Under the pieces are notes generated by a model. The model saw only the letters and a program-made list of their open reading frames with translations. It was not told the DNA's origin and searched no databases. This document shows, piece by piece, positions 2,805 through 24,606 of a stretch of DNA of 64,000 bases (positions are counted from its first letter, which is position 1; each line of letters begins with the position of its first letter). The position numbers and the translations under genes are program-made. The stretch is from an uncultured Clostridia bacterium (GTDB taxonomy: Bacteria; Bacillota; Clostridia; Oscillospirales; Ruminococcaceae). The stretch is from NCBI GenBank assembly GCA_947630845.1, contig CANRJB010000010.1:1-64000 (forward strand), read 5' to 3'.

Positions 2805-4136
2805 TCATCCGATCGTCTTTCCGGATGCTGCCCACTTTTTCACATAGGCAAGGTCAAATACATTCACGATACCATTTTCATCAATGTCATATATTCTCTT
2901 CTCATTGCTCTGCATGGTACGCTTTCCATGTAAGTAGTCCATCACAAATGCTGCATCTTCCGCACTCCAGACCTTTTTCTGATACCAGCCGATCTTCCAT
3001 CCGCCGTACACCGGATACAGTGCCATGACTTTATCCTCTCCGTCACGCTGTATGATACGGATCTCATCGCCCTTTGCGATATAACCGATCTCTTCGGCAA
3101 GATCCGGTCTGCTGTAGACAGGAAGATACCACTCAGCAGTGATCGTCTCTGTGTAGGTATCCGGATTCGCCGGCAGAAATGTTGAAAACGGGAGAAAGCC
3201 GATCCTGTTTCCCATTTTGGTCGGGTAAATGAATTTACACCATCCGTTGGTGTAGATCTCACGGATGATGCATTCATCCGTCGGAAATACCGATGCTCCG
3301 CTGATCTCCGTTTCCATGTCGGCATAGTACGGCGTATAGTACTCTTCCTCCCATACATGCGTCCGCAGCGGCAGAAAGGGTTCACAAGCCTCATTGATTT
3401 CCGGGAAATGCTCCGGGAAATAGTTGAAATTCACATAGGAGATGTCCAGATCAATAGCACTGCTGCCGTTGCCGTTCAGATCTCCCTTGTCGGAATACTG
3501 CCACATACAGTAGGTGTCGCTGTAATCCTGAATCGTGTAGTCATACGTATAGCGTGCCAGCCAGAGTGGATAACCCTCCGCAGAAATGGCATCACCATCC
3601 AGAAAATTCCGGAACCAGTTCAGATTGGCATACACTGCCGCATTGAATCCTGCCTCCCGGATCATGGCAAGTCCGTCAAGCACATACTTGGTCATGACCT
3701 CCTTGCCGAGCTTCGTCTGTGCATCACTTTCCACATCCAAAAAGACCGGATAGTCAAATTCCTTCCCCTCGATCGTCACCAGAAACTCATTGACCGCTGC
3801 TTCAAAGGATTCCCATGTCGTCGCTCCGCAGTACAGATAAACACCTACACGCAGCCCGACTCTCCGGGCTGCTGCATAATTGGCATCAAATCTGTCGTCC
3901 TCATAATACTCTGTGCCTTCTTTTGCCAGCTTACCGCCACGCATAATGACAAAATCAATATCATTTCCTGCAAGCAGCGTCCAGTCAATGTCCCCATTAT
4001 AAGTGGAGACATCCACACCATGATAAATGACCTCAGCTGCATTGGCAGTGAGCTGCTGCGGCAGTCCGCCGATCGTGGTCAGCAAAAGCACAAATACGGT
4101 CAACACTGCTGCAAGTCGTCTGTTGATTGCCTTCAT
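2805..4136 (-). CDS. GH25 lysozyme-like secreted protein with SH3-like region and C-terminal degenerate dockerin
   Basis: Signal peptide MKAINRRLAAVLTVFVLLL; YHGVDVSTYNGDIDW and DFVIMRGG GH25 signatures; C-terminal DIDENGIVNVFDLAYVKKW calcium-loop motif; start set at 4136 by ATGA overlap with the upstream gene. Confidence 0.9.
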   Translation of the reverse strand: MKAINRRLAAVLTVFVLLLTTIGGLPQQLTANAAEVIYHGVDVSTYNGDIDWTLLAGNDIDFVIMRGGKLAKEGTEYYEDDRFDANYAAARRVGLRVGVYLYCGATTWESFEAAVNEFLVTIEGKEFDYPVFLDVESDAQTKLGKEVMTKYVLDGLAMIREAGFNAAVYANLNWFRNFLDGDAISAEGYPLWLARYTYDYTIQDYSDTYCMWQYSDKGDLNGNGSSAIDLDISYVNFNYFPEHFPEINEACEPFLPLRTHVWEEEYYTPYYADMETEISGASVFPTDECIIREIYTNGWCKFIYPTKMGNRIGFLPFSTFLPANPDTYTETITAEWYLPVYSRPDLAEEIGYIAKGDEIRIIQRDGEDKVMALYPVYGGWKIGWYQKKVWSAEDAAFVMDYLHGKRTMQSNEKRIYDIDENGIVNVFDLAYVKKWAASGKTIG

Positions 4137-5296
4137 GATTCCTCCGTTTCTCTTAATGCCCGTTTCAAGCGGCACAGTCCATCCCTGACACGCTCTGCCG
4201 GACATGCGATATTCATGCGGAGAAACCGCTCTCCGCATCCGTACTGCACCCCGTTTGAAAGATACAATCCCGTTTTCTGCCGGATATCCTCTGCAAGCTC
4301 CCTTGCATCCCTGTGGAGCGATGTGCAGTCCAGCCAGAGCAGATACGTTGCCTCCGACGGGACAAGTCTGATTTCCGGCAGCTCTGCTTCCAGAAAACTG
4401 CGGACAAGCTGCTTGTTCTGATACAGATAGTCACGCAGTGCATCCAGCCATGCAGCCCCCTTCGTGAACGCTGTCACTGCTGCCTGTACCGCAAATGCAT
4501 TCGGCTCGGCAACTTCATCCGTATTCAGGGCACGCCACACCTTGTGCCGCAGATGTTTGTCAGGCACGACCGCAGCCGATGTCTGAATGCCGGCTAAGTT
4601 GAACGCCTTTGTCGGAGCGATGCAGGTGACGCTGTTCTGTCTGCATACCTCTGAAACCGATGCAAATGGCACATACTTCTTCCCCGGATCGGTCAGATCA
4701 CAGTGAATTTCATCCGACAGCACAATGACCCCATGCGCCGCTGCCAATTCCCCGATGCGTGACAATGTGTCTCTGTCCCAGATCTTTCCGACCGGATTAT
4801 GCGGATTACAAAGCAGCATGAGCGTGGTCTGCGGATCGGACAGTCCTTGCTCCAGTCCGTCAAAGTCGATCTCATACGCCGTCCCGTCATACCGAAGCGG
4901 ACACTCCAGCACAGTCCTTCCGTTGTTACGGATGCAGTTGTAAAAGATGTTATACACGGGAGGCATGAGCAGCACTTTTTCCGCAGGCGTGGTGAGCTTG
5001 CGGACACAGCTTGAAATGGTCGGGATGACACCTGCGCTGAAAAGCAATTCCTCCTTCCGGAATGTCACGCCATGCCGTTCCTGCCACCAATTGCTGTATG
5101 CCTGATACCATTCGTCCGGCACGACAGTATAGCCGAATACCCCATGTGCTGCCCGTTCGGAGAGTGCCTCAATGATCTCCGGTGCTGTGCGAAAATCCAT
5201 ATCTGCCACCCACATCGGCAGCTCACCCGGACGGATATCCCATTTCAGCGAATTGCTCCCGCTGCGGTCAACACATTCGTCAAAGTCATAGTTCAT
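4133..5296 (-). CDS. PLP-dependent C-S lyase / aminotransferase (MalY/PatB family)
   Basis: MNYDFDECVDRSGSNSLKWDI, LPMWVADMDFRTAPEI, PLP-lysine region SVTCIAPTKAFNLAGIQTS. Confidence 0.92.
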   Translation of the reverse strand: MNYDFDECVDRSGSNSLKWDIRPGELPMWVADMDFRTAPEIIEALSERAAHGVFGYTVVPDEWYQAYSNWWQERHGVTFRKEELLFSAGVIPTISSCVRKLTTPAEKVLLMPPVYNIFYNCIRNNGRTVLECPLRYDGTAYEIDFDGLEQGLSDPQTTLMLLCNPHNPVGKIWDRDTLSRIGELAAAHGVIVLSDEIHCDLTDPGKKYVPFASVSEVCRQNSVTCIAPTKAFNLAGIQTSAAVVPDKHLRHKVWRALNTDEVAEPNAFAVQAAVTAFTKGAAWLDALRDYLYQNKQLVRSFLEAELPEIRLVPSEATYLLWLDCTSLHRDARELAEDIRQKTGLYLSNGVQYGCGERFLRMNIACPAERVRDGLCRLKRALRETEES

Positions 5297-6411: not shown

Positions 6412-7479
6412 TTAGTTTCCGTTCAGATAACGATAGAATTCAGACTTACTCTGGCACTTCTCCAGTGCTGCCTGTTCGGAAACAATACCACGCTTCACAT
6501 AACGTGCCAGCTCCTGATCAAGGCACATCATGCCGTACTGCTTACCGGACTGAATTGCCGACAGCAGCAGGTGTACCTTATCATCACGAATCATCGCTGC
6601 ACACGCATCCGTAACTGCAAGGATCTCCATGCAGGCTTCACGGCCCTTACCGTCCAGTCTCGGAAGCAGAGTCTGGGAAACGACACCAACGAGGTTGTTT
6701 GCAAGCTGGGTTCTGATCTGTCCCTGCTGATGCTCCGGATATACGTCAATGATACGGTTGATGGTATCAGCAGCAGAAGTGGTATGCAGTGTGGAGAATA
6801 CAAGGTGTCCTGTCTCGGCTGCGGTGATCGCTGCACTGATCGTCTCAAAGTCACGCATCTCACCTACGAGGATAACGTCCGGGTCTTCACGAAGTGCGGC
6901 ACGCAGTGCGGATGCAAAGTCCGGCACATCGTCTCCGACCTCTCTCTGGTTGACCATGCAGAGCTTATGGGAATGCACATACTCGATCGGGTCTTCAACA
7001 GTGATGACATGCGCACTTCTATGCACGTTGATGTAGTCGATCATGCCGGCAAGCGTGGTGGATTTACCTGAACCGGTAGGACCGGTTACGAGTACCATAC
7101 CACGGGGACGCATGGAAAAGTCAGCCAATACAGGCGGCAGATGCAGATCCTCCAGTGTCGGGATATCATTCCGCAGGAGACGGATCGCAATTGCTGTCTT
7201 ACCTCTCTGGAAATAGACATTGACACGGTGACGATAGCCGGCAGTGGTCTGGAACGAGAAGTCGGTGTCCACATGTCTGCGGACGCTTGCCATCTGCTGC
7301 TCATTTGTCATCTGATTGACAATGTCGAGAACAGTCTCTTCATCGAGTTCGGGGTATTTTGTCATCTTACGGAGCGCACCATTCAGACGGACGATGGGGT
7401 TGATGCCGTAAGTAAAATGCAGGTCTGAACAGCCGATCGCACGAGCTTCGTTCAGAATGCGGTTAATTTCAATAGCCAT
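6412..7479 (-). CDS. pilT: Type IV pilus retraction ATPase PilT
   Basis: Walker A GPTGSGKSTTLAGMIDYIN; AIRLLRNDIPTLEDLHLP; RAALREDPDVILVGEMRDFETISAAITAAETGHLVFSTLHT. Confidence 0.96.
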   Translation of the reverse strand: MAIEINRILNEARAIGCSDLHFTYGINPIVRLNGALRKMTKYPELDEETVLDIVNQMTNEQQMASVRRHVDTDFSFQTTAGYRHRVNVYFQRGKTAIAIRLLRNDIPTLEDLHLPPVLADFSMRPRGMVLVTGPTGSGKSTTLAGMIDYINVHRSAHVITVEDPIEYVHSHKLCMVNQREVGDDVPDFASALRAALREDPDVILVGEMRDFETISAAITAAETGHLVFSTLHTTSAADTINRIIDVYPEHQQGQIRTQLANNLVGVVSQTLLPRLDGKGREACMEILAVTDACAAMIRDDKVHLLLSAIQSGKQYGMMCLDQELARYVKRGIVSEQAALEKCQSKSEFYRYLNGN

Positions 7480-7512: not shown

Positions 7513-9192
7513 TTATACAGCATAGGTTACACGTACCAGCTCATCCATAGAAGTAACGCCCTGCTGAACCAGCTCGGATACATTATCACGAAGCAGCTTT
7601 GTGCCATTCTTCTTTGCCTGCTCCTCGATTTCCTCCTTGCTGCCGTTACGGGCAACGATCGTGGAAATACCGGAGGTGCAGTGGATGATCTCATGAATTG
7701 CAGTACGTCCCTTATAGCCTGTATTGTTGCATTCTGCACAGCCCTGATGCTCGAATACCGGAATTGGTGTGGAGACATCCTCAAGCTTCATCAGCTTATT
7801 TTCTTCTTCTGTGGACATACGCTGACGCTTGCACTTCGGGCAGAGTACCTTAACCAGACGCTGTGCAATAACACCGATCAAAGAGGTTGCAACCATGTAA
7901 GGTGCAACACCCATGTCAACCAGACGGACAATGGTAGATGCCGCATCATTGGTATGCAGTGTGGACAGTACCAAGTGTCCTGTGATAGCTGCACGGATAC
8001 CGATATCAGCCGTCTCGGAGTCACGCATCTCACCGATCATGACAATATCCGGGTCCTGACGAAGGATGGAACGCAGTGCTGCGGCAAAGGTCATACCAGC
8101 CTTCGCATTTACCTGTACCTGATTGATGCCGTCGATCTGCTTCTCGACCGGGTCTTCGACCGTGATTACATTGACATGCGGCTTTGCAAGTTCACCAAGT
8201 GCGGCGTAAAGTGTGGTGGTCTTACCGGAACCGGTAGGTCCTGTTACAAGGATAACGCCGTGCGGGCACTTGATCATGGATTCAAACAGCTCATAGTTGT
8301 AGTCAGACATACCGAGGTCTGTGATCTTACGCAGAGCGATCTGTCCGGTAGACAGGATTCTGATAACGATCTTCTCACCATTTACCGTCGGAAGAGACGA
8401 TACACGGACATCAAGCACAGTACCATCTACTGTCTGTGTGAAACGACCGTCCTGCGGAATACGCTTTTCTGCGATGTTCATGCCGGAGATCAGCTTCAGA
8501 CGTGTCGTCAGTGCATTATGTACGACATTGGAAACATTCATCAGCTCAACCAGATCGCCGTTGACACGGATACGGATCCTGGTGTAGGTCTTGAACGGCT
8601 CGATATGGATATCGGTTGCATCCGCACGATAGGAGTTTTCAACGATCGTCGTAGCAAGCTTAACGATAGGTGCGCTCTCAACACGATCTCTGGATTCGTC
8701 ATCCTCTGACTCCTCATTACGGAACTGCTGCACGCTTTCGAGTACGCTGTCAACGTTCTCCATGGAGTAAAGCTGACCGATCGCCTTATTGATCGCCGAT
8801 CTGGTCGCAAGTACTGGAATGGTATCCATACCGGTCTGCATCTTGATATCTTCAAGGATGTTAAAGTTGATCGGGTCATCCGTTGCGACCGTCAGACGAC
8901 GTCCCTGAATGTTGATGGCAATGACGGTATGCTTTTTGGCAAGGCTTTCCGGGATCTTACGGACAGCATCCTCATCGATCTCGACATTGCCCAGATCAAC
9001 ATACGGCACACGAAGCTTAGCAGCGAGCGCCTTGGCGAGGCTGACCTCAGAGATAAAGCCAAGCTCTACAACCATTTCACCGAAGCGCTTTGAGCCTTGT
9101 GCTTCCTTCTGCGCAGCGAGTACCTTTTGCAGCTGATCTTCTGTGATCAGTTTCTGTTCCACAAGGTAATCACCAATACGAATGTTTCTCAT
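7513..9192 (-). CDS. pilB: Type IV pilus assembly ATPase PilB/GspE with N-terminal MshEN-like domain
   Basis: GPTGSGKTTTLYAALGEL, tetra-Cys CPKC...CAEC zinc motif, RIGDYLVEQKLITEDQLQKVLAAQ N-terminus. Confidence 0.96.
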   Translation of the reverse strand: MRNIRIGDYLVEQKLITEDQLQKVLAAQKEAQGSKRFGEMVVELGFISEVSLAKALAAKLRVPYVDLGNVEIDEDAVRKIPESLAKKHTVIAINIQGRRLTVATDDPINFNILEDIKMQTGMDTIPVLATRSAINKAIGQLYSMENVDSVLESVQQFRNEESEDDESRDRVESAPIVKLATTIVENSYRADATDIHIEPFKTYTRIRIRVNGDLVELMNVSNVVHNALTTRLKLISGMNIAEKRIPQDGRFTQTVDGTVLDVRVSSLPTVNGEKIVIRILSTGQIALRKITDLGMSDYNYELFESMIKCPHGVILVTGPTGSGKTTTLYAALGELAKPHVNVITVEDPVEKQIDGINQVQVNAKAGMTFAAALRSILRQDPDIVMIGEMRDSETADIGIRAAITGHLVLSTLHTNDAASTIVRLVDMGVAPYMVATSLIGVIAQRLVKVLCPKCKRQRMSTEEENKLMKLEDVSTPIPVFEHQGCAECNNTGYKGRTAIHEIIHCTSGISTIVARNGSKEEIEEQAKKNGTKLLRDNVSELVQQGVTSMDELVRVTYAV

Positions 9193-9286: not shown

Positions 9287-10168
9287 ATGCTACACAATGA
9301 ATACATGGACATGCAGTTTTACATCATGTTCTACCCCATCGTTTTTTTCTATGGGATCTGTATCGGCAGCTTTCTGAACGTTGTCATCTACCGCCTGCCT
9401 CGGGGAGAATCCCTCATCAAGCGAGCCTCTCACTGCACCACCTGCGGTGCCAAGATACGGGTCGTGGATATCATTCCGATCGTCAGCTGGCTGATGCTGA
9501 AAGGCAAATGCCATAGCTGCGGTGAAAAAATCTCCCCACGCTACCCGATCGTGGAAGCTCTCAACGGGATTATTTATGTCATTACTTTCACAGTCATGGA
9601 TTTCAACCTGAAATCACTGATCTACTGTCTGTTTTTCTCGGTGCTGATTTGTCTTGGGTTCATTGACTGGGACACAATGGAAATGGATCTGCGGATGTTG
9701 GGACTGATCGTGGTGTTGGCTCTGCCGGTCATTATCCTGCCGATGCTGCCGCAATATTATAATATGCCGGAGTTCCTGCAATATGAGGACGGCGGCTTGT
9801 GGGCGCATCTGATCGGGCTGGTCTGTGTGAGTGTGCCGTTCTTCCTGATCGGAGAGATCAGCGGCATGATCATCCGGAAACGCAACCCTGAATCTGAGAT
9901 CCGCCGTGGCATCGAGCTGGGCGACACCCTCATCATGGCGGCAGGGGGGCTGCTTATCGGATGGAAAGCATGCGTAGTTTCGGCATTTTTTGGTATCATC
10001 ATTGCGGCGGTGATGGGGCTTGTCAGCAAGTTGAAAACCGGCGAATCAAGATTCGCTTTCGGTCCGGCACTTGCGGTGGGGCTGTTCTTCGGGGGACTGT
10101 TCGGGGATGCGATCATGGACTGGTACATCGCCATTCTGACGTATAACCCTTACGAAATGCTTCAATAA
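9287..10168 (+). CDS. pilD: Type IV prepilin peptidase/N-methylase
   Basis: GSFLNVVIYRLPRGES; CTTCGAKI...CHSCGEKIS double CxxC; membrane protein with aspartates in FIDWDTMEMD and ELGDTLIMAAGG. Confidence 0.95.
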   Translation: MLHNEYMDMQFYIMFYPIVFFYGICIGSFLNVVIYRLPRGESLIKRASHCTTCGAKIRVVDIIPIVSWLMLKGKCHSCGEKISPRYPIVEALNGIIYVITFTVMDFNLKSLIYCLFFSVLICLGFIDWDTMEMDLRMLGLIVVLALPVIILPMLPQYYNMPEFLQYEDGGLWAHLIGLVCVSVPFFLIGEISGMIIRKRNPESEIRRGIELGDTLIMAAGGLLIGWKACVVSAFFGIIIAAVMGLVSKLKTGESRFAFGPALAVGLFFGGLFGDAIMDWYIAILTYNPYEMLQ

Positions 10169-10220
10169 CAGCACGGCAGCCGGGAGAGCAATCTTCCGAC
10201 TGCCGCTTTTTGTGCTGTTA
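10165..10220. terminator. Bidirectional terminator between convergent pilD and minor pilin gene
   Basis: Nested palindrome TAACAGCAC...GTGCTGTTA with inner GGCAG...CTGCC and T/A tracts; includes both stop codons. Confidence 0.7.
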
Positions 10221-11312
10221 TGGTGCGCTTGTATCCTGTTCAGAGCCGTAGCTGTAGATGAAGGTGAGTCCATCTGCTACTTTTTTCGACTGATCTGCTA
10301 TACTGCCGTCTGATGGTACATACTTATAACCTGACACAATGTCGATATAGCCGTCTAACGGCACTGTTGCTCTGTCCACAATTACATTTTTTTCCGAAGA
10401 TGAACCCGTTGCAGGTATGTGCTTCACTACAAAATAGTGACCAGCTACTCCTCCCTGAGCTCTTTTGTAGATATTGACAAGGGACATCGCCGCCACGTTG
10501 ACAAACTGCCGGGGGGTAGTACTTGGCGAACAATTACATATCATTTTACCGTTTTCATCCATATGATAGTCTGCACCGCAGACCTTGCATTTTTCCTTAC
10601 GAGTTGCACGAATGGAGAAAGCGGTACTTGAAGCTTTGATATTATTTAATACAGTCTGCATAAAATCCGTTTGTTCACCTGTATCAATTGCACCGTTACT
10701 GTCCGTGTCATTCCAGATTTCTTCACCACGTTTTAAACATTGATAAACCTCATCAAAATTTCCGATATTCTGAATCGTACCTGGTATAATTGTGAAATTG
10801 TAGGAATCATAGTATGCTTTGTTGACAGGTAAATAACTATCTTTCATCAACTCCACATTCGCAGTGTCGACTTTATAGTAATTACCTTCTGCATTCTTTT
10901 CAGCCTCAAAGCTTTTGATTTTATAGTCCCACTTGGTAATCTTACCGTCGTTGCTATTGTCAAATTGGAGTACATGCACAATGCCGTTTCCATATACGGG
11001 AGAATCCGGATCGCTCTCTGCCTGCAAAACGCCGCCATAGTACGTCCCGGCAAATTCGGCAACCTTATTTTTTAAATCGTTTTCATCTACTACCCTTTCG
11101 CCGTAGATTTTGAGATACTCGGCTGTGGAAAGCTCGGTTTCAAGGTACTTGGAAATGGAGCTGACTGCAGCAGAGCCGTTCTCCATATTCTCGGCATTTG
11201 TCATGATCTTGCTTGCGGGCGTCATGAGAGACGTTGCCGCAAACATGATAATGCTGAAAATCGCAAGCACAACAATCAGCTCAATGAGGGTAAAGCCCTT
11301 AACACGTTTCAT
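10218..11312 (-). CDS. Prepilin-type protein (PilW/GspJ-like) with Cys4 insert
   Basis: MKRVKGFTLIELIVVLAIFSIIMFAAT class III signal; insert CKVCGADYHMDENGKMICNCSP. Confidence 0.88.
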   Translation of the reverse strand: MKRVKGFTLIELIVVLAIFSIIMFAATSLMTPASKIMTNAENMENGSAAVSSISKYLETELSTAEYLKIYGERVVDENDLKNKVAEFAGTYYGGVLQAESDPDSPVYGNGIVHVLQFDNSNDGKITKWDYKIKSFEAEKNAEGNYYKVDTANVELMKDSYLPVNKAYYDSYNFTIIPGTIQNIGNFDEVYQCLKRGEEIWNDTDSNGAIDTGEQTDFMQTVLNNIKASSTAFSIRATRKEKCKVCGADYHMDENGKMICNCSPSTTPRQFVNVAAMSLVNIYKRAQGGVAGHYFVVKHIPATGSSSEKNVIVDRATVPLDGYIDIVSGYKYVPSDGSIADQSKKVADGLTFIYSYGSEQDTSAP

Positions 11313-11329
11313 ACTTCACTCCTCCTTCG

Positions 11330-11707
11330 TCAAGATGTCGGTGCTTCGGTCGCATGCTCTACCTCATAAAACTGGAGATTGGCATCCATACCGGACTGGT
11401 AGAACGGATTTGTTTCGTCAATTTTTGCCTGATATTTTTTTGCATTTATCGTACTTTTGGATGAGCCGGGGACGGTGATTGTCACATCATTTACAAATTC
11501 AGCTTCTGACGGGTCGGTGTTAATAATGGCTGCGACCGGTGCTTCTTTGACGGTCTTGTTGGTCGTGTGGTTGGCGTTCATGAGGAAACGGCAGGTCGAA
11601 GTCACGATCACCGCCATCATGACCGCCATAACGCCGAAGACGAACAGCGCAATGATGCACTCGATCAGAGTCATGCCTTTGACTTTTTTACCTTTTTTCA
11701 TCGTCAA
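11330..11707 (-). CDS. Prepilin-type protein (PilV/GspI-like)
   Basis: KGMTLIECIIALFVFGVMAVMMAVIV class III signal. Confidence 0.88.
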   Translation of the reverse strand: MTMKKGKKVKGMTLIECIIALFVFGVMAVMMAVIVTSTCRFLMNANHTTNKTVKEAPVAAIINTDPSEAEFVNDVTITVPGSSKSTINAKKYQAKIDETNPFYQSGMDANLQFYEVEHATEAPTS

Positions 11708-11719
11708 GCACTCCTCTCA

Positions 11720-14440
11720 TCAATAGTAGTTGTAGTACATGGTGTACAGCTTGTCGGGTGCTGCGGAACTGCTTCCACCGCTGATGCTTCCCGCATTACA
11801 CTTGCATTTTGCGCATGAACACGGGCAGCCACTTGCTCCTGTACATGAAGCACAACAACCACATGTATTGCTTTCTGGCAGGGTAACATATATCAAATTA
11901 AAATTATTCTGCGGGTTAATCTCCCAGCATACCAATTGTCCAATTACTGATATTGGTGTACCACTTCCATATTCCTTTATTGTCGGTGTTATACCATCGT
12001 CACTCCATTGTCTGTATTCTATAGCAGTCGGACAATTATAACCACCATTACCTGTTTGATTAAAAACAAGCGAGGGTGCATTAAAATTAACTGTAAACAG
12101 TCCATTAGCACATGTAAATTTAGGTCTTGCACTATCATCTATACCTTCATATTTTTGTGCATACATGAATACATTTGGATAATATGGACTATCCGAATTT
12201 TCCTGAACCTGATCAATTATTAAAGCTTTTTTAATCGTACCTCCGACATCAATTTCACTAACTGGTAAATTGGTTCCGGGGTCATTACCATCCTTAAAAT
12301 AGTTATTGTAATCATTTGTTATGATATTACAATTATTATTCATGGTGAAATTTCCTCTGACAAAGAAATATACACCCTTTCCATCTTCAATATAAATTGA
12401 ACTTCCAGCCGACATTGAAAAATCATCTACAATAAGAAATACCGCACCACCTGTTGCATCAATATACAAATCCTTACTACACGTTCCACTTAATAAACCA
12501 GAATCTGTTATAGGATTTGTTTCACTAACTTCATCCAATGCAATTGGAGCTTCTGAAACGGTAGCCGTTATAGACGAATCTGCATCTGTCAAATCATCTG
12601 TATAGGAATATTCACTTGCATCAGGTGGAGGTACAATATTGTTTATTATGTTATCCTTTTCATATTCATCTGGATAAATATCACCGTATTCAGAAGTAAC
12701 TGATGAAATTATTACATATTTATCACTGTTCATCGCTTCGTATCTGGGAAAGCTTTCTCCGGTTTCAAAAGATGTAGCTGTTAGCGTTGCTCCAATACCT
12801 AATGCTTCACGTATTTGCTCATCAGTAGCATCACGAATATCCCCACTCATTTGAACAAGATTATACTGTGTTGTGTATGTTATGGTTTCTTTGCTTTCTT
12901 CTCCAACTTCGTTGCCGTCTAAATCGAGATTCTGGCTATGTTTTACATATGAACATGAATATTCATATCTTGCATCACCCCAATCTTCAGTTTTAACATA
13001 TACTGGAGGAGTATGTGTATAATCAGTATACCAAACTCGTGTTGAACCCGCCAATTCATTAGCACTTACGCCCGGACTTCTTGTGTAGATTTTTCCATTA
13101 CATTGGATTGTTCCATTGTTTTCAATCGTATCTGCGTATATGTTATTACATGTCAAAGTTGCACCAGATGCAATTTTAAGAATATTTCCAACAACTACAT
13201 CTCCGCCTACATTACTATTTCTGACTATTGTTAAGTTATTCTCAACTCTGATATCTCCCTCCGTGTCCATATCAGTTTCTAAACTACCTTTGCTATAGAA
13301 TGAACCAAACAAATGATTCTCTTCGTTGCCATCTTTACCAACAATAGTTTTCTTTGTCCATTGATATAATTTTGAAGTTGATTTAGCCTGATAGTACAGG
13401 TAACTTGTCTCAAAAGCATCAAAACAATATATATCACCGTAATTTGAGAATTTTGAGCTTTTATCTGTAGGAGCTTTAATTGAACCGCAATAGATATTTA
13501 CCGGAGTTTTTGAACCATCAGAAATGCAAACATCTGTTGCATTACCCGGTGTCTTATTATCATCGTTTATAGCTTGCAAATGAAGTGTTTTTCCAACATA
13601 AATACAAGGAATTTGATTATAGTCAACCTTATCTGGAAAATCAAAGTCCTCTGCAACTTTAACACCTTCAAAATTATTATTAAACCATAAATCTCCTGTC
13701 ACTGCAAAATACTGTTTTTCAGCTACTTGGTTGAAGTATACATTAACTTGTGACTTCATTTTCAAATCACCGTTAATATAAGCCGGAGCCATTTCAGACG
13801 TACTATTCTCAAATTCAACCATACCGATACCGTCTTTTTTTCCGATACCGATTTCTGTACCACCTGATACAAAGCCACCTGTACCAATTTTTTTATTTGA
13901 TCCACCAACAGAAACAAATGCGCCACCGTTTCCGCCGCCTTTGCCACCGTTTCCGGTGTTGATCTCAGCGTCGCTCATATAAGCTGTATACACCGTCTCC
14001 ACGCCTGTACTCTGCATTATAATCGTAGTGGATACAGAATAAACGTTGCCTGTCTGCCATTTGTCCTTTTCATAAAACGGACGCTCTTCCATCTTTGTGA
14101 TGGTAACAGGGTACTCTTTTTTTGTCCCGCCCTCATCAAAAGTCACATTAAAAGTAAGATCAGCACCGCCTATTGACAGGTTTCCGATTTTGTCCGTCAG
14201 TCCGCCAACTTTCTTGTCATCCTGATTGATTGCCTCCACAACCGCATCAAGCACGGCACGGGCGGTCGCTTCGGTCTGCTCTTTCTGATAGTTGCGGTTT
14301 GCCCGGTTATTCGCCGTCGCCGCCAGTGCGAGGGTGCCCATCAAGAATACGATGAGCACCATCATCACGGACACGACGGTGAACAGGACGGTACCTTTGA
14401 CCTTAGTCAGTCTTGCTTTCTCCTTCATCATCCTGACCAC
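11720..14440 (-). CDS. Large PilX/GspK-like putative pilus-tip protein with Cys-rich C-terminal tail
   Basis: N-terminal KVKGTVLFTVVSVMMVLIVFLMGTLALAA hydrophobic segment without Glu5; embedded in the pil operon; C-tail CGCCASCTGASGCPCSCAKCKC. Confidence 0.7.
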   Translation of the reverse strand: MVRMMKEKARLTKVKGTVLFTVVSVMMVLIVFLMGTLALAATANNRANRNYQKEQTEATARAVLDAVVEAINQDDKKVGGLTDKIGNLSIGGADLTFNVTFDEGGTKKEYPVTITKMEERPFYEKDKWQTGNVYSVSTTIIMQSTGVETVYTAYMSDAEINTGNGGKGGGNGGAFVSVGGSNKKIGTGGFVSGGTEIGIGKKDGIGMVEFENSTSEMAPAYINGDLKMKSQVNVYFNQVAEKQYFAVTGDLWFNNNFEGVKVAEDFDFPDKVDYNQIPCIYVGKTLHLQAINDDNKTPGNATDVCISDGSKTPVNIYCGSIKAPTDKSSKFSNYGDIYCFDAFETSYLYYQAKSTSKLYQWTKKTIVGKDGNEENHLFGSFYSKGSLETDMDTEGDIRVENNLTIVRNSNVGGDVVVGNILKIASGATLTCNNIYADTIENNGTIQCNGKIYTRSPGVSANELAGSTRVWYTDYTHTPPVYVKTEDWGDARYEYSCSYVKHSQNLDLDGNEVGEESKETITYTTQYNLVQMSGDIRDATDEQIREALGIGATLTATSFETGESFPRYEAMNSDKYVIISSVTSEYGDIYPDEYEKDNIINNIVPPPDASEYSYTDDLTDADSSITATVSEAPIALDEVSETNPITDSGLLSGTCSKDLYIDATGGAVFLIVDDFSMSAGSSIYIEDGKGVYFFVRGNFTMNNNCNIITNDYNNYFKDGNDPGTNLPVSEIDVGGTIKKALIIDQVQENSDSPYYPNVFMYAQKYEGIDDSARPKFTCANGLFTVNFNAPSLVFNQTGNGGYNCPTAIEYRQWSDDGITPTIKEYGSGTPISVIGQLVCWEINPQNNFNLIYVTLPESNTCGCCASCTGASGCPCSCAKCKCNAGSISGGSSSAAPDKLYTMYYNYY

Positions 14441-14460: not shown

Positions 14461-15369
14461 TTAGTCGCCAAGCTCCGGCTTGTCAATTGCCTTTGCATTG
14501 TAGAATGTTACTGTCAGACTCATCTCAGAATAGCCGTCCGCAAGAAGTGTCTGCTCGCCACCGGCTGCCGGGGTCTGTGCAGGTGCTTCTGTGGGGGCTT
14601 CGGTCGGTTCTTCGACTCCTTCACCTTCTGCGCCCTCTTCGCCTTCTTCCGGTGCGGGGGGAGCTTCGGTAACTGGCGGTGCAGCTTCAGTTTCTTCTTC
14701 CAGACCGCCGGAGAAGGTGTAGTCGCTGATGGACACGTTGTTGATCAGAACAGCGTTCGGGTCGTCCTTGATCTTCTCCATGAACGCCATGATGTTCTCA
14801 CGTGTGCCGACCACATCGAGCGTAACTTCGTTCGTCATTACGTCTGCAACCTGTCTCTCCGTCAGAACGACCTGATTAACAAGAAGTTCTGCGATATCTG
14901 CGGCATAATTGCCGTTGACATCCGCTGCTTCAAGGAGCGAATAGGTGACAACATTGGGGGTATAATAGTAGTATTCCAGTGTTGTGGATGCCACGCCGGA
15001 CAAATCAAAGTTGCGGACTTCCAGCTCACTTTCATCAATTGCTGCCTGGATATGCTCATCCACAGCAACATTTGCCTTCTCATCACTATAATTTCCATTC
15101 ACATCCGAGAATGCCTCGTTGACGAAAATCGCTGCATCCTTGTTTGCGTCATTATAGAGAGAGGTAACGGTTTCTTTCAGAGCAGGGATCTGGTTGATTT
15201 TCTGTTGGATGCCGTCCCACTCGGACTTTGTCGTATTATACGATTCCAGACTTGCCACGTATTTATCATACTGCGGCTTGATCAGTGCAAAAAATCCTGC
15301 TACGAGAATGACGATGATCGCAATCACGACGAGAATCGTCTTATCTCTTTTGTTCATTTCCTTCATCAT
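14461..15369 (-). CDS. PilO-like type IV pilus assembly protein
   Basis: Short cytoplasmic N-terminus, one TM (TILVVIAIIVILVAGFFALI), coiled region, operon position after the PilM-like gene. Confidence 0.75.
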   Translation of the reverse strand: MMKEMNKRDKTILVVIAIIVILVAGFFALIKPQYDKYVASLESYNTTKSEWDGIQQKINQIPALKETVTSLYNDANKDAAIFVNEAFSDVNGNYSDEKANVAVDEHIQAAIDESELEVRNFDLSGVASTTLEYYYYTPNVVTYSLLEAADVNGNYAADIAELLVNQVVLTERQVADVMTNEVTLDVVGTRENIMAFMEKIKDDPNAVLINNVSISDYTFSGGLEEETEAAPPVTEAPPAPEEGEEGAEGEGVEEPTEAPTEAPAQTPAAGGEQTLLADGYSEMSLTVTFYNAKAIDKPELGD

Positions 15370-15385: not shown

Positions 15386-17101
15386 TTACTCTGCTGCTGC
15401 ATCTTCGGCAGGTGCTTCTTCGGCAGGAGCTTCCTCAGAGGGAGCTTCTGTCGGTGCTTCGATTTCAGGAAGCTGTTTCTCATTATTGACGGTCAGAACG
15501 AGATCAAATGCTACCTCATTCACTCCACCGAGGATCTCCTGTACTGCGCCATTTACTTCCTCGGGTGCTTCATCAATGCTCAGCTCTTGCACAGCATAAC
15601 CTGTATACTCCACTTTCGAGAAGAGATCGCCGTAATTCTTGTACAGATATTCCACCATTGCAGCCGGATACTTCTGCGAGTACACGTCGTTTGTCGCCAC
15701 ATTGACCGGGAATGTGAACACGCCGTTTTCATAGTCAACATTCTGAATCAGTCTGATGCCGGCTACCGCAACAGTGTCCTCACCCTCTGCTCCTTCCGCT
15801 GCCGGAATTGCATTCTCCAGTGCGTCGTCAATGGCAAGATAGTATTCCTCTGTCAGAATCGGCTGTGACAGATATGCTTCTTTTGCAGTCTTTACAGTAT
15901 CCGCATAGGCAGAGACTGTATCCCGCATCACGCCGAGGTCATCGTACTGCTTGAGCTTTTTCGAAGTTTCAGGGGAATCAATATCTGCCTGAAGCCTTTC
16001 CGTCTCATTTTCCTTCGCAACTGTCATTCCTTTCAGAACGCCCCAAACACCGCCTACGCAGACAATACTTGCGATCAATGCCACTGCTGCAAAGACAGTA
16101 AAGGACTTATCTGTTGTACCTGCTCTCTGCGGTGCGCCGGCAGAGCTTTCGGTTTCAAGGAGGTTGATATGTTCTGTAAGCTTGTCACGCTTGAACATTG
16201 CGCCGATGGAGTTGGCATATACGGAGAATTCAAGATTCTGGTAGCCATGGATCTGCGGCGGTACGTTCAGCTGGCTGACATTCAGCTCATTGGATGCAAG
16301 CTCATCAATGAGTCGGTTATAGAGGTTCGGGGAGACATTGATGTCACCGTAGAACACCACATTCTCGATGGTATCCGAGCCACGGCTTCTTGCGAATTGC
16401 AGCATACGGAAGATGTTCTCGTTGACAGCCTCGAATACATAGTCATCAGGATTCTCATAGTCCTCCGGATCAATGGATGCGAAACGGGAGAAGGAGAGCT
16501 GATTGTTCTCATAGAGGTTGAGTGAGATGAAGTCGCTGTCGATCTGTACAGCAAGCAGCGGCATCTTTGCCTTGGTCTTGGAGTCAGCCATCAGCACCTT
16601 GGTGATCGCATTACATCCGATCATGACAGAGCGCAGGTTGATGCTGAGCATATGGAAGATACGCTTGTAGCAGTCTACTACGTCATACGGACATGCAGTA
16701 ACGAGCACCTTCTGCTTCTTTTCACCGTTCTCGTCGTCCTCAGGCTCACCCACGATAACGTAGGCAACGGAGTAGGAGTCATCGACATTGATCTGCACCT
16801 CGAGCTGGTGTCTGATCTCCTTCATGAACTCGCTTTCCTTGGGGTTCGGCGTAATGAGCAGTTCCTTAAAGACTGTCTGGTTAGAGGAAATGGCAACGAT
16901 CGCCTCTTTATCAGGCATGTTGTTGCGCTTGAGTACTTGGTTGATGAGAACGGCAACACGGTTGATGTCGTTGACATGACCATTGACAATGACTGCCTCT
17001 TCCAGTGCAATTTCAGCAGCAGCACTGATCTTGATCTTGCCGCCGCTCTCCGTACCCTTGATGATACGGATCTTTCTATCGGTAACGTCAAATGAAAGCA
17101 T
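15386..17101 (-). CDS. PilM-like actin-fold ATPase fused to a PilN-like membrane segment
   Basis: N-terminal PilM-like fold (MLSFDVTDRKIRIIKG...), internal TM AAVALIASIVCVGGVWGVLKG, C-terminal extracytoplasmic region. Confidence 0.8.
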   Translation of the reverse strand: MLSFDVTDRKIRIIKGTESGGKIKISAAAEIALEEAVIVNGHVNDINRVAVLINQVLKRNNMPDKEAIVAISSNQTVFKELLITPNPKESEFMKEIRHQLEVQINVDDSYSVAYVIVGEPEDDENGEKKQKVLVTACPYDVVDCYKRIFHMLSINLRSVMIGCNAITKVLMADSKTKAKMPLLAVQIDSDFISLNLYENNQLSFSRFASIDPEDYENPDDYVFEAVNENIFRMLQFARSRGSDTIENVVFYGDINVSPNLYNRLIDELASNELNVSQLNVPPQIHGYQNLEFSVYANSIGAMFKRDKLTEHINLLETESSAGAPQRAGTTDKSFTVFAAVALIASIVCVGGVWGVLKGMTVAKENETERLQADIDSPETSKKLKQYDDLGVMRDTVSAYADTVKTAKEAYLSQPILTEEYYLAIDDALENAIPAAEGAEGEDTVAVAGIRLIQNVDYENGVFTFPVNVATNDVYSQKYPAAMVEYLYKNYGDLFSKVEYTGYAVQELSIDEAPEEVNGAVQEILGGVNEVAFDLVLTVNNEKQLPEIEAPTEAPSEEAPAEEAPAEDAAAE

Positions 17102-17133: not shown

Positions 17134-18330
17134 TTAAGCTGCGATCGCATCGAACGAGCCATACAGTGCCGGGAATACTGCAAGCAGCAGCATGCAGACT
17201 GCAACGCCCATGACGATGATCATAACAGGCTCAAGCAGACTTACCAGACGTGCAACCGCAGAATCAGCCTCTTCATCGTAATATTCAGCCGTCTTGGAAA
17301 GAATGGTATCCAATGCACCGGCTTCCTCACCGACGAAGATGATGGAGCAGAACATAGAGTCAAAGATCTCGGTTCTCTGGATGGAGGAAGAAAGAGTCTC
17401 GCCCTGTTTTACTTCATCCACAACATTCACAAACAGCTCATTGATATAGCGGTTGCCGAGGATCGCAGAGGATCTTTGCAGACATTCTACCATCGGGATA
17501 CCGGAAGAATACAGGGAAGACAGGGTACGTGCAAATCTTGCAGTATAGATCTTGACGACCAGAGGACCCCATGCCGGACCCTTGATGATCAGCTTATCCC
17601 ATTTGATACGGGTAGCCGGTATTTTCATTACATATGTAACAGCGAAGATCACACCAACGATAACCATGATATAGATGTACCAGAAATGCACCAGTGAATC
17701 CGAGAAAGCCATCATGACTTTGGTGAACGCCGGCATATCATCCGGGCTTTCATACAGACCTGCGAACGTCGGCATGATAAAGGTAAACATGGCAATGATG
17801 ATGACGATACACAAGATACCGAGGATGATCGGGTAGGTCATTGCGCCCTTGATGGTATTATGCATCTTGTTTTCCTTTGCGTAGTGATCCGACATACGCT
17901 GCATGATGACATCGAGCGAGCCGGAGCTTTCACCGGCAGAAACCATGGAAATCAGAAATTCCGGGAACACGCCTCTGTACTGTTCGAGAGAGCTTGAGAA
18001 CGATTCACCTTTCTGCACGTTCTCATAGACACTCTGCCAGATCTCCCTTGCCTGCTGGCTTGGCTGTTCTTTACTGAGGATGTCCAGTGCCTTGACCAGA
18101 GTCAGACCGGATGTCAGCATGGCAGCAAGCTGCCGGCAGTTGAATGCCAGATCCTTCGTGGTAAACTTCTTGATCGTGTTTTTGCTTTTGATGTCCTTTT
18201 CTTCGTACCTCAGGATCTCATAGCCCTTCTGTCTCGCTTGGGCCATAAAGTCCTTTTCGTCTTCTGCGTTGATCGTACCCTTTACCTCTTTGCCGGCTTG
18301 GGTCTTTCCAACGTAGGAAAAGCTCTTCAT
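17134..18330 (-). CDS. pilC: Type IV pilus inner-membrane platform protein PilC/GspF
   Basis: FSYVGKTQAGKEVKGTINAED; FCRQLAAMLTSGLTLVKALDIL; start moved to 18330 because the promoter lies at 18391-18419. Confidence 0.94.
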   Translation of the reverse strand: MKSFSYVGKTQAGKEVKGTINAEDEKDFMAQARQKGYEILRYEEKDIKSKNTIKKFTTKDLAFNCRQLAAMLTSGLTLVKALDILSKEQPSQQAREIWQSVYENVQKGESFSSSLEQYRGVFPEFLISMVSAGESSGSLDVIMQRMSDHYAKENKMHNTIKGAMTYPIILGILCIVIIIAMFTFIMPTFAGLYESPDDMPAFTKVMMAFSDSLVHFWYIYIMVIVGVIFAVTYVMKIPATRIKWDKLIIKGPAWGPLVVKIYTARFARTLSSLYSSGIPMVECLQRSSAILGNRYINELFVNVVDEVKQGETLSSSIQRTEIFDSMFCSIIFVGEEAGALDTILSKTAEYYDEEADSAVARLVSLLEPVMIIVMGVAVCMLLLAVFPALYGSFDAIAA

Positions 18331-18390
18331 TCGACCACCTCCAATGGTTCGATTAAAATGTGAGTATACGCACAATACTCCAGTATCTTT

Positions 18391-18419
18391 ATTATACCAT
18401 CTGCATTCTGAAAATGCAA
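18391..18419 (-). promoter_or_regulatory. Promoter of the pilC-led pilus operon
   Basis: Minus strand TTGCAT - 17 nt - TATAAT. Confidence 0.6.
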
Positions 18420-18651
18420 TCGCTTTTTTACATAAATCCAACACTTTTTTTTAGAAATTTTTACTAAACTGCCGACCGTTTTATACTAAATGTAATATTT
18501 TAATTATTTTTTCAAAATAATGGACGAAATTATATTACATAAGTTAAAACATTTAACTTATAAGTCTTGCCATTTCTGATTCGTATTTTGTACAGTATTC
18601 ACAAATATTTTTCGTTTCACATCCCATGCCCTGTATCATATTATGCGAAAC

Positions 18652-21370: not shown

Positions 21371-22357
21371 CTACATAAATATCAGCATCATGGCAGCATA
21401 GATGGCAAATACGACAACATAATATAACACCAAGCAGCCGACGATATTCCAGAAACTTGTGCCGCCGGAAGTCTGGAGGATCAGCTTGCGCATCTGAACG
21501 GGTGCGGTCTTTCTGATCTTTCCGACCGATTTCACAACAAAGCGGAAATAAAGATAATTCCCGAACAGACAGAACAGGAGCTGCATCCCGATGTTGATGA
21601 GATAAAAGGGAACAAACAGGTTCTGAAACAGTGTCTCATTGGATTGCAGGAAGCTGACCAGTCCGTCAAACATATGCGCACCCTGTGCCCCGTAAAGCTC
21701 CTCAAGCAGCTCAATATAATCCTCTGATGTCAGTGCTGTGAGCAGAGACAACAGCAGATAAGGCATTGTGCTGAGGATGAAAAGCAGACCGCTGAGGATC
21801 GCCATGTGCCACATCTTCCGGTAGGCAAAGTAGAAATATGGGAAAAACAGACAGGTAAAGTTGAGCGATGTCTTCCGTCCCGTATCCCGGAAACGCCGGA
21901 AAAGAGGGATATAATAAAGCGTATTCGTCCCCACAAAGCTTGCCACATCGCCAAGCCGTTCCTCCTCGATCGGTTCATCCGGCGACAGACCGCAGCATGG
22001 ATCGGTGGCATCAAAATACACATTCTGTCCGTCCGGCATTGCTATCCTGATCCGGGAGGATTTTTCCTCCTCCGTTTCTTCAAGCTGTTTTCCGCAGGAT
22101 GCGCAGTTTTTAACACCGGGCACGTTGATGAACTGGCAAGCCGGGCAGACCTTGCCGCCGATGGCTCTGCGGTTTTCATCCTGCTGTGCCTGCCAGCTTC
22201 CGCCGACGGCATGGAGAGGTGTATTGATGCACCGTCCCACAGATTCCCAGCAGGAACGATGATAGGGGGTACCGCAATCCGGGCAGACAACTACATTGTC
22301 CTCATCCTCAAACTGTTTCTGACAAATGATGCACTGCGTCCCTGTAAATCTTCCCAT
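21371..22357 (-). CDS. Prokaryotic RING/zinc-ribbon membrane protein
   Basis: N-terminal CIICQKQFEDEDNVVVCPDCGTPYHRSCWE plus CPACQFINVPGVKNCASCGKQL; several C-terminal TM segments. Confidence 0.8.
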   Translation of the reverse strand: MGRFTGTQCIICQKQFEDEDNVVVCPDCGTPYHRSCWESVGRCINTPLHAVGGSWQAQQDENRRAIGGKVCPACQFINVPGVKNCASCGKQLEETEEEKSSRIRIAMPDGQNVYFDATDPCCGLSPDEPIEEERLGDVASFVGTNTLYYIPLFRRFRDTGRKTSLNFTCLFFPYFYFAYRKMWHMAILSGLLFILSTMPYLLLSLLTALTSEDYIELLEELYGAQGAHMFDGLVSFLQSNETLFQNLFVPFYLINIGMQLLFCLFGNYLYFRFVVKSVGKIRKTAPVQMRKLILQTSGGTSFWNIVGCLVLYYVVVFAIYAAMMLIFM

Positions 22358-22519: not shown

Positions 22520-23203
22520 ATGGATAATAACATTGCCGAGCTGAGCCGGCGTTACCGTGAGGAAATGCTGCGTATGTACAGCAGCAAACAGCCTGCGGTA
22601 CAGCAGACTGCCGCAGAGGTGAGCGAGTCCGTACCAAAGGACGGGGAAATGATGCCCGAACCTGCCGGACTTCCTGCGCCTGCTGAACCGTCTGTATCTG
22701 CACTGCCCGAACCGATCATCGAGGAAAGCTTTGACGATCCTGAGCTGCCGGAGCATTTTCAGACACAGCTCCCGGAGGACTGGACGGCACAGGAGGCATA
22801 TGAAAAATACAACTCTGCCGTGGGTAAGCTGCGTGTGGTCGCAGCAACTGCCCGGAGTGCCTATCCGGTCGCCGGAGCAAGGGTGATGGTGTACACCCAC
22901 ATCGGCGGCAGAAGCTACCTGAACTACGTCCTGACGACGGACATCAGCGGAGAGACACCGACCGTTGAACTGCCTGCACCGCCGGCAGCCCTGTCACAAA
23001 ATCCGGAAAATGCCGACCCGTACTCCATCTGTGACATTGACATCTTTGCAACAGGATATTTTCACAGTGAAGCCAAAAATGTCCACATCTTTGCCGGTGT
23101 CACCACACGGCAGGTATTCCAGCTCATCCCCCTGCCGCTGCATTTCACTGCGGCAGAGGAAGCCGCCTTCCCTGCCAGCGATACAGGGGAGGTGGAACGC
23201 TGA
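22520..23203 (+). CDS. Hypothetical protein with transthyretin/CarboxypepD_reg-like domain
   Basis: GKLRVVAATARSAYPVAGARVMVYTHIGGRSYLNYVLTTDISGETPTVELPAP; operon with peptidoglycan-binding proteins. Confidence 0.6.
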   Translation: MDNNIAELSRRYREEMLRMYSSKQPAVQQTAAEVSESVPKDGEMMPEPAGLPAPAEPSVSALPEPIIEESFDDPELPEHFQTQLPEDWTAQEAYEKYNSAVGKLRVVAATARSAYPVAGARVMVYTHIGGRSYLNYVLTTDISGETPTVELPAPPAALSQNPENADPYSICDIDIFATGYFHSEAKNVHIFAGVTTRQVFQLIPLPLHFTAAEEAAFPASDTGEVER

Positions 23204-24606
23204 TGCTGACCGGTGAGCCATTTATTCCGCAGACCATCACCGTCCATCTTGGCTATCCGGGTGACAGCGGACAGAATGTGACTGTCTCCTTTCCGGAGTA
23301 TATCAAGAACGTGGCATCGAGTGAGATCTACCCGACATGGCCGGAAACTGCACTGCGTGCAAATATCTACGCCATTGTGAGTTTTGCGCTCAACCGCATC
23401 TACACGGAATGGTACCGTTCACAGGGGTATGATTTTGACATCACATCCGAGACACAGTATGACCAGAAATACATTGACGGCAGACAGATCTATGAAAACA
23501 TCTCCATTCTTGTCGATGAGCTGTTTGATGATTACCTCCGCCGTCAGGGACGGGTCGAACCGCTGTTTGCGGCATTCTGCAACGGCACGACCGTGACCTG
23601 CAACGGTCTGTCACAATGGGGGACAGTCGATCTGGCAGAGCAGGGCTTTCTCCCCTATGAGATCCTGACTTATTATTACGGAGATGATATTGATATTGTG
23701 AAAAACGCACCCGTCCGCACAAATACCATGTCCTACCCCGGTGAGCTGCTTGCATCCGGTACAACATCTGCTGCCGTGCGCACTTTGCAGATCCAGCTCA
23801 ACCGCATCTCCCGGAATTATCCGGCGATTCCCAAAATTCCGAATATCTCAGGCATCTATGACATTGCCACACAGGAAGCCGTCCGTGCCTTTCAGGAGAT
23901 TTTTGACCTTGCCCCGACCGGCACTGTCAACAAAGCAACATGGTATCGCATCGCCTACATTTTCACAAGCGTCAAGCGGCTTGCGGAGCTGGATTCCGAA
24001 GGTATCACCTATGAGGAGCATCCGTTCCAGTTCACGCAGCAGCTTTCACCCGGTGACAAGGGCGAAGCAGTCCGGGCATTCCAGTATTTTCTTGCCGTTG
24101 TCGGGGCATATTATGAAGCTGTTCTGCCCATTCAGATCACCGGTACATACGATGCCCAGACAGAAGCCTCCGTCCGTTCCTTTCAGCAGGTCTATGGACT
24201 GCCGCAGACGGGGATACTCGACGAGCGGACATGGAACGATCTATTCCGGGCATATGCAGGTATTCTGGAATCCATCCCACGGGAATATGCGGAATGGATC
24301 CCACAGCTCTACTCCGGCAACACCCTGTCGGAGGGTATGACGGACGACAACATCCGCATCATGCAGGAATATCTGACCTACATCCACGACACCATCCCGG
24401 AAATCCCGGCAGTGCGCAACACAGGCTATTTCGGACCGTTGACAAAAGAGGCTGTCATCGCATTCCAGCGGTATGCCGGACTCGAACCGAATGGTATTGT
24501 AGGGGCAGTGACATGGGATGCCATCGCCGGACTGTATTCTGATCTGCGGCTGGGTTATGAGAAACGTCCCTACCAGTCGCCCGGCTATACCATCCGCAAC
24601 CAATGA
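23203..24606 (+). CDS. SpoIID/LytB-like domain plus tandem PG_binding_1 domains
   Basis: N-terminal ...FDITSETQYDQ...FCNGTTVTCNGLSQWGTVDLAEQGFLPYEILTYYYGDDI resembles SpoIID; repeated RTLQIQLNRIS...GIYDIATQEAVRAFQEIFDLAPTGTVNKATW modules. Confidence 0.8.
   Translation: MLTGEPFIPQTITVHLGYPGDSGQNVTVSFPEYIKNVASSEIYPTWPETALRANIYAIVSFALNRIYTEWYRSQGYDFDITSETQYDQKYIDGRQIYENISILVDELFDDYLRRQGRVEPLFAAFCNGTTVTCNGLSQWGTVDLAEQGFLPYEILTYYYGDDIDIVKNAPVRTNTMSYPGELLASGTTSAAVRTLQIQLNRISRNYPAIPKIPNISGIYDIATQEAVRAFQEIFDLAPTGTVNKATWYRIAYIFTSVKRLAELDSEGITYEEHPFQFTQQLSPGDKGEAVRAFQYFLAVVGAYYEAVLPIQITGTYDAQTEASVRSFQQVYGLPQTGILDERTWNDLFRAYAGILESIPREYAEWIPQLYSGNTLSEGMTDDNIRIMQEYLTYIHDTIPEIPAVRNTGYFGPLTKEAVIAFQRYAGLEPNGIVGAVTWDAIAGLYSDLRLGYEKRPYQSPGYTIRNQ

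Follow-up and report, generated by a model that had tools for sequence, protein, structure and literature searches.

An exchanged three-gene minor pilin cassette encoding a putative tip pilin with a predicted inserted beta-helix and a variable linker in an uncultured Clostridia bacterium

The exchange of minor pilin sets is known in Pseudomonas aeruginosa, and metallothioneins resemble the cysteine cluster described below in their CxC/CxxC spacing and in density (9-10 cysteines in about 25 residues). Tip complexes are capped by a subunit without Glu5 (PMC10191384). ComZ of Thermus thermophilus (PDB 6qvi; PMC6561018) lacks Glu5, is encoded beside partner minor pilins, has been proposed to occupy the tip and binds DNA. 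Its pilin domain is closest to GspK, and its solenoid of about 380 residues is placed between the penultimate and last pilin strands via two short linkers, the domains being rigid (PMC6561018). In the GspI-J-K set of type II secretion the K subunit also lacks Glu5, the I-like and J-like pilins accompany it with a canonical Glu5 in J, and in GspK a helical domain separates strands 3 and 4 (PMC6561018). Modular pilins generally present ligand-binding modules, and PilB/PilC of Streptococcus sanguinis are monoderm minor pilins bearing a foreign functional module at the C-terminus on one short loop (PMC8179133).

The window analysed here is a stretch of 64,000 nucleotides from an uncultured Clostridia bacterium, and contains a pil operon in which the gene designated K adjoins I- and J-type minor pilin genes (Table 1). 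The gene order C-M-O-K-I-J / D / B / T was kept in every locus spanned by its contig, and K was present in 35 of the 38 genomes of the genus that were searched, of which 33 complete homologues were used for the linkers and 29 full-length homologues for the alignment. Other genera of the family also have a K gene in this genomic context, and its C-terminal region is related. The hosts are presumed, from gene content, to be monoderm anaerobes. The genome to which the window belongs (G000; 92 % complete, 43 contigs) has a single full-length K, which is the one K-like match at E <= 0.001. Two major-pilin-like genes of 168 and 207 amino acids (GFTLVE and GFTLTE motifs; L130:1495-2001 and 2146-2769, contig C20) are unlinked to the pil operon in this genome, and the operon in the window is without an evident major pilin.

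Table 1 Positions of the pil genes, the cassette and the elements of K in the window
Feature	Position	Strand	Basis and remarks
T, PilT retraction ATPase	6412..7479	(-)	PF00437, synteny
B, PilB assembly ATPase	7513..9192	(-)	PF00437, PF05157
D, prepilin peptidase PilD	9287..10168	(+)	PF06750, PF01478; conserved flank, convergent with J
Exchangeable K-I-J putative tip cassette, about K codon 57 to J end	10218..14272	(-)	Edges by analogy with sister-genome pairs
J, minor pilin	10218..11312	(-)	PF07963; GFTLIE motif (Glu5 present), aromatic C-terminus; in exchanged cassette
I, small minor pilin	11330..11707	(-)	N_methyl motif PF07963; part of exchanged cassette
K, GspK/ComZ-like minor pilin with predicted inserted beta-helix	11720..14440	(-)	906-aa ORF; genus-wide homologues and model
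K residues 898-905, conserved C-terminal aromatic strand (LYYNxY)	11726..11749	(-)	Model strand, block pLDDT 79
K residues 857-892, putative return linker with Cys cluster	11765..11872	(-)	pLDDT < 50; hypervariable low-complexity in homologues
Cys cluster, K residues 860-881, CGCCASCTGASGCPCSCAKCKC, 9 Cys in 22	11798..11863	(-)	Translation; homologous clusters in 6 other genomes
K residues 175-856, predicted AT-rich beta-helix module	11873..13918	(-)	Model, sub-cut-off Pfam matches, GC3 blocks
Stretch of highest variability in the beta-helix, K residues about 456-570	12731-13075	(-)	
K residues 159-171, first disordered linker, Gly-rich	13928..13966	(-)	pLDDT < 50
K residues 94-157, four strands, predicted start of pilin beta-sheet	13970..14161	(-)	Model; same in most distant allele class
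K residues 18-73, predicted pilin helix alpha-1	14222..14389	(-)	Model helix
O, PilN/PilO or GspM-like assembly protein	14461..15369	(-)	Weak T2SSM match, synteny; conserved flank
M, PilM	15386..17101	(-)	PF11104; conserved flank
C, PilC platform protein	17134..18444	(-)	PF00482; conserved flank

K starts with a GTG codon (an alternative ATG is possible at codons 4-5) and has a class III signal with a hydrophobic alpha-1 helix. Its prepilin motif is KVKG/TVLFT, with cleavage after residue 16 and Thr in place of Glu at +5. This residue, Thr21 (mature position 5), was invariant in 29 of 29 aligned full-length homologues, as were K15, G16, T17, V18 and L19, and the preliminary description, which placed a product with a PilX/GspK-like N-terminus lacking Glu5 inside the pil operon, was borne out. 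The Pfam N_methyl model gave no match on K, and at the N-terminus the NCBIfam ComGG_2 model scored 18.3 bits against a cut-off of 40 (weak matches in 8/29 homologues) and the NCBIfam tapirin model, on residues 4-68 only, 26.2 bits against a cut-off of 600 (E 2.4e-6). Further along, a Bactofilin-like Pfam match at residues 378-454 scored 20.1 bits against a gathering threshold of 27.9 and recurred at E <= 0.01 in 14/29 homologues, a DUF7305-like match at residues 610-710 was under its cut-off, and a sequence search of K against solved structures returned Bactofilin A alone (E 0.0075).

Predicted structures of K, of moderate confidence (mean pLDDT 73), were obtained for the window protein and for the most distant allele class (G012), and both showed an identical order of elements, comprising helix, strands, linker, beta-helix of ~680 residues, return linker and final strand. 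The pilin helix ends at residue 73 in the window model and 74 in the G012-class model, with strands to about residue 160, and the low-confidence first linker occupies residues 159-171 and 164-173, respectively. The beta-helix runs to about residue 855 in both, followed by a low-confidence return stretch (857-892 and 856-868); the chain closes with a strand of eight residues at pLDDT near 78 (898-905 and 872-879). The last residues of the window protein are KLYTMYYNYY, and this Tyr-rich end corresponds to a strand conserved in the genus. When the G012-class model was searched with Foldseek the best PDB match was ComZ 6qvi (E 5.1e-4, probability 0.99); the model of the window K gave no significant fold match against the PDB and the viral library, and ComZ was not among its listed matches. 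From the architecture shown by these models, and by analogy with ComZ, we infer that the beta-helix is inserted in the pilin fold just before the last pilin strand, the pairing of this strand with the pilin sheet being suggested by the order and length of the strands and by the example of ComZ.

K resembles ComZ in the missing Glu5, the neighbouring partner minor pilins and the proposed tip position, but belongs to a different phylum, has a predicted solenoid of about 680 residues and has a putative return linker that is long and hypervariable. It shares with the GspI-J-K set the combination of a K subunit without Glu5 and I-like and J-like partners, whereas its extra domain would be a beta-helix before the last strand. 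Compared with PilB/PilC, the module of K would be inserted through two linkers rather than appended, and is carried in a mobile three-gene block. The tapirins of Caldicellulosiruptor match K over the N-terminal 65 residues and their C-terminal domains were among the fold matches of the beta-helix, but the score on the full-length model was far under its cut-off (26 bits against 600) and the fold matches were not significant (best E 0.011). A beta-solenoid inserted in a tip pilin is already known from ComZ, and grafted pilins are known as well. What appears to be new is the combination, in presumed monoderm anaerobes, of a sharply bounded three-gene tip cassette exchanged across the genus with a predicted beta-helix insert of ~680 residues and with a return linker that is interchangeable and can take a Cys form.

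K, I and J are exchanged as one cassette. In sister-genome pairs the machinery genes were 93-100 % identical while the K-I-J sets were unrelated, with sharp edges between the two. In the pair G035/G037 identity was 99 % for C, 93 % for M and O, 96 % for D and 100 % for B and T, but 38 % for K, 48 % for I and 46 % for J. The set was likewise replaced in G033/G029, G012/G015, G026/G016 and G001/G016, and was kept in G019/G020 and G006/G032 (K 79-81 % identical). The reverse case was seen in G005/G006, where the machinery differs by 24 % and K by only 43 %, compared with 3 % and 71 % in G035/G037. The horizontal exchange originally proposed for K held in sister-pair, edge, tree and distance tests and extends to the three-gene cassette, and the whole protein is not conserved across the genus. 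The comparisons turned up no donor and recipient that carry near-identical cassettes, and a search of the cassette edges found neither repeats nor the ends of mobile elements. A diversity-generating retroelement was set aside as the source of the variation, which spans whole genes with insertions and deletions.

We consider it probable that K is a tip-capping minor pilin with an inserted beta-helix, that the K-I-J tip complex is exchanged and that the Cys stretch is one version of a linker. K, as a K-type subunit without Glu5, is expected at the tip, and as such would cap a retractable type IV pilus. The beta-helix of ~680 residues, tethered by two flexible linkers, would interrupt the pilin fold of K just before the last pilin strand, and the Tyr-rich C-terminus would supply that strand. 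I and J would partner K as minor pilins, and the three would build a tip complex that sets ligand specificity, with adhesion to a surface or a polymer as its most likely role. The co-adapted block would be replaced by homologous recombination between related species, with edges in the conserved start of K and the end of D, and the Cys cluster would be one return-linker version, probably metal-thiolate. The exchange of the cassette, the variability of the linkers and, at the level of models, the architecture are what the data show; we infer the tip location, the I-J-K complex, ligand binding and the metal.

Replacement of the whole tip set at constant machinery fits a specificity determinant. 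By analogy with modular pilins a tip adhesin is plausible, and adhesin is the leading reading of K, although we would put its chance at about even. The cassette would then be the part of the pilus of a gut-type bacterium that probably decides attachment and is replaced between species with near-identical machinery, and tip specificity would be testable through comparison of natural alleles. The main alternative, possible but somewhat unlikely, is that the tip serves natural transformation as a receptor for DNA, as ComZ does, and is not an adhesin; the predicted fold and its placement are like those of ComZ (PMC6561018), and a cell that takes up DNA would thereby also gain the recombination by which the cassette moves, but a DNA receptor gives little reason for swaps to unrelated versions between sister species. 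A wider interpretation of the locus can be offered tentatively, and at less than even confidence, as a polymorphic-tip system. A conserved retractable motor would carry K-I-J sets of unrelated, co-adapted types that the species hold in a common pool and exchange at fixed edges. The linker that precedes the last strand would itself be interchangeable, and in one of its states it would form a metal-thiolate clip outside the cell of a presumed anaerobe. If this is true, attachment specificity (and possibly phage sensitivity) would shift in one recombination step.

The nine cysteines in 22 residues of K reported in the preliminary description were found exactly at the coordinates given there, but the stretch is not a terminal tail, being located between the beta-helix and the conserved final strand. 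The corresponding slot in the homologues, bounded by the beta-helix end IGQLIAxxIxxxxxWGMLYV and the C-terminal LYYNxY, varies between genomes. A Cys cluster is present in 7/33 complete homologues (G000, G035, G009, G008, G023, G001 and G014) and lacking in 26/33, so that the Cys stretch is retained in some homologues and missing from most, and it was absent from all 20 K genes fetched from other genera. Other return linkers are poly-Asp (G026), Gly-Glu (G033), Pro-Thr (G005, G034), Asn-Pro (G006) or Gln-rich (G030 and G032), with further types elsewhere, and the close relatives G006, G032 and G028 have wholly different return linkers despite near-identical flanks. The first linker is Pro/Thr, Asn/Pro or Gln/Asn in other homologues, and the two linkers of one species are often alike in composition. 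From the models and the aligned sequences, the Cys stretch is best read as one version of an interchangeable return linker rather than as a functional tail end, because of the predicted inserted-solenoid build like that of ComZ, the hypervariable slot, the relatives that differ there and the first linker of matching flavour.

It is unlikely that the cluster is instead a dedicated functional end, such as a metal-binding or disulfide-locked tip. The cluster is constrained, since G009 and G014 retain all ten Cys and most cluster residues although their K proteins differ by 50 %, and the Cys state of the seven K bodies requires 3 changes on the K-body tree (0/500 shuffles as low). Against a functional end, the cluster precedes the conserved final strand in a slot that elsewhere holds poly-Asp, Gly-Glu, Pro-Thr and other sequences, it is missing from most complete homologues and from the other genera, and it is scattered on the machinery tree much like shuffled states (6 changes against a shuffled mean of 6.5). 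The 3 changes on the K-body tree and 6 on the machinery tree indicate that the Cys state travels largely with the K allele.

The seven clusters have the common spacing C-x-C-(G)-C-x-x-C ... C-x-C ... C-x-C, and a Pfam search of the seven tails gave no family match, metallothionein included; the cluster also differs from metallothioneins in belonging to the linker of an exported pilin. A profile of the seven tails found the cluster in K alone among the 38 genomes, which argues against chance. There were a few weak further hits (E 0.03-0.6), and at those inspected the frame that matched held no plausible gene. The idea that the Cys-tailed genomes encode a second protein with such a cluster was rejected, the inspected weak-hit loci holding other genes in other frames. 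The disulfide-locked tail suggested previously is disfavoured, as no match to DsbA, DsbB or VKOR was found in the 92 % complete genome of the window, and this favours a metal-thiolate over a disulfide cluster. The cluster is thus probably a compact metal-thiolate link, and would be an uncommon dense thiolate module displayed outside an anaerobe. J of the window has a zinc-ribbon-like CxxC...CxC insertion of its own at residues 242-261 (CKVCGADYHMDENGKMICNC; gene at 10218-11312, minus strand), which was unseen in J of other genomes, save for CxxC...CxxC in G002. A coupling between this insertion and the Cys stretch of K was rejected, the motif being private to G000 and absent from the other Cys-tailed genomes.

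It is very unlikely that K, I and J are merely fast-evolving genes inherited vertically under diversifying selection. K is the fastest gene even in non-replaced pairs (79-81 % identity when C is at 98-99 %), but the ratio of K to machinery divergence is 2-7 in some close pairs and 22 in others, and the edges are abrupt at the DNA level: in five sister pairs DNA identity was mostly 75-95 % outside the cassette, dropped to mostly 30-60 % near K codons 50-60 and recovered at the J end, with a step of about 90 % to about 40 % at the edges. The tree conflict and the joint movement of K and J also stand against it. Distances for K, I and J were intercorrelated (r 0.84-0.88) and correlated with the machinery at only 0.24-0.33; for K and J, r was 0.85 (0.24 with the machinery), and the partial correlation of 0.84 was reached in 0/2000 permutations. 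AU tests rejected the machinery tree for K, for I and for J, and the K tree shared 3/30 splits with it. The K, J and I trees shared 11-14/30 splits, and AU tests rejected each other's exact tree, which argues for smaller exchanges layered on the block exchange. Where the cassette was kept, a smaller variable patch was seen in mid-K (about codons 380-580) and another at the return linker, and in G019/G020 and G006/G032 the most variable part of the beta-helix (residues about 456-570 in the window protein) was replaced alone.

That the mosaic is an assembly artefact, in which cassettes of different strains were joined to the wrong genomes, is highly improbable; most genomes appear to be many-contig drafts and several contigs end inside K, but many cassettes are unbroken in long contigs with the operon order intact and the genes in-frame, and independent genomes show these edges again. 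The least probable of the explanations is that silent copies within one genome feed antigenic variation, as they do for hypervariable pilin genes elsewhere, given the one K-like match in the 92 % complete, 43-contig assembly of the window's genome, in which no silent K cassettes were found, and the lack of flanking repeats. Draft contigs were observed to end inside K in G036 (codon about 68), G030, G014, G002, G004 and G031, at codons about 28-330 and later, and breaks of this kind are what strain-level differences in K within a single species would be expected to cause.

The AT-rich body of K relative to the flanking pil genes, also noted in the preliminary description, was evident in GC and GC3 along the gene. 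The GC of positions 12001-14000 is 0.345-0.365 compared with about 0.50 in the flanks, and GC3 in 40-codon blocks starts from 0.80 at the N-terminus, drops to about 0.2 along the beta-helix and climbs back to 0.65 in the tail. At 4-fold degenerate sites GC is 0.28 in K compared with 0.44-0.71 in the other operon genes, and the drop in GC3 is therefore not due to amino-acid content alone. K was under its neighbours in GC3 in 34/36 genomes, with a mean gap of 0.106, and G000, G035 and G037 were the extremes of this deficit. AT-richness as a sign of import is unsupported and the AT-rich body is poor evidence for it, because the cassette also contains gene I, whose GC3 is normal, and because K is low in 34/36 genomes; an AT-rich donor would not on its own account for the bias.

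Elsewhere in the window, a gene pair at 22520-24606 (plus strand) encodes a 227-aa protein without a Pfam match followed by a SpoIID-like protein with three peptidoglycan-binding repeats, and a Prok-RING_1 prokaryotic RING-finger protein (E 2.5e-22) with membrane segments is encoded at 21371-22357 (minus strand). The gene at 2805-4238 (minus strand) encodes a glycoside hydrolase family 25 protein, whose C-terminus resembles a dockerin at a score just under the Pfam cut-off and so hints at an organism of the cellulosome type.
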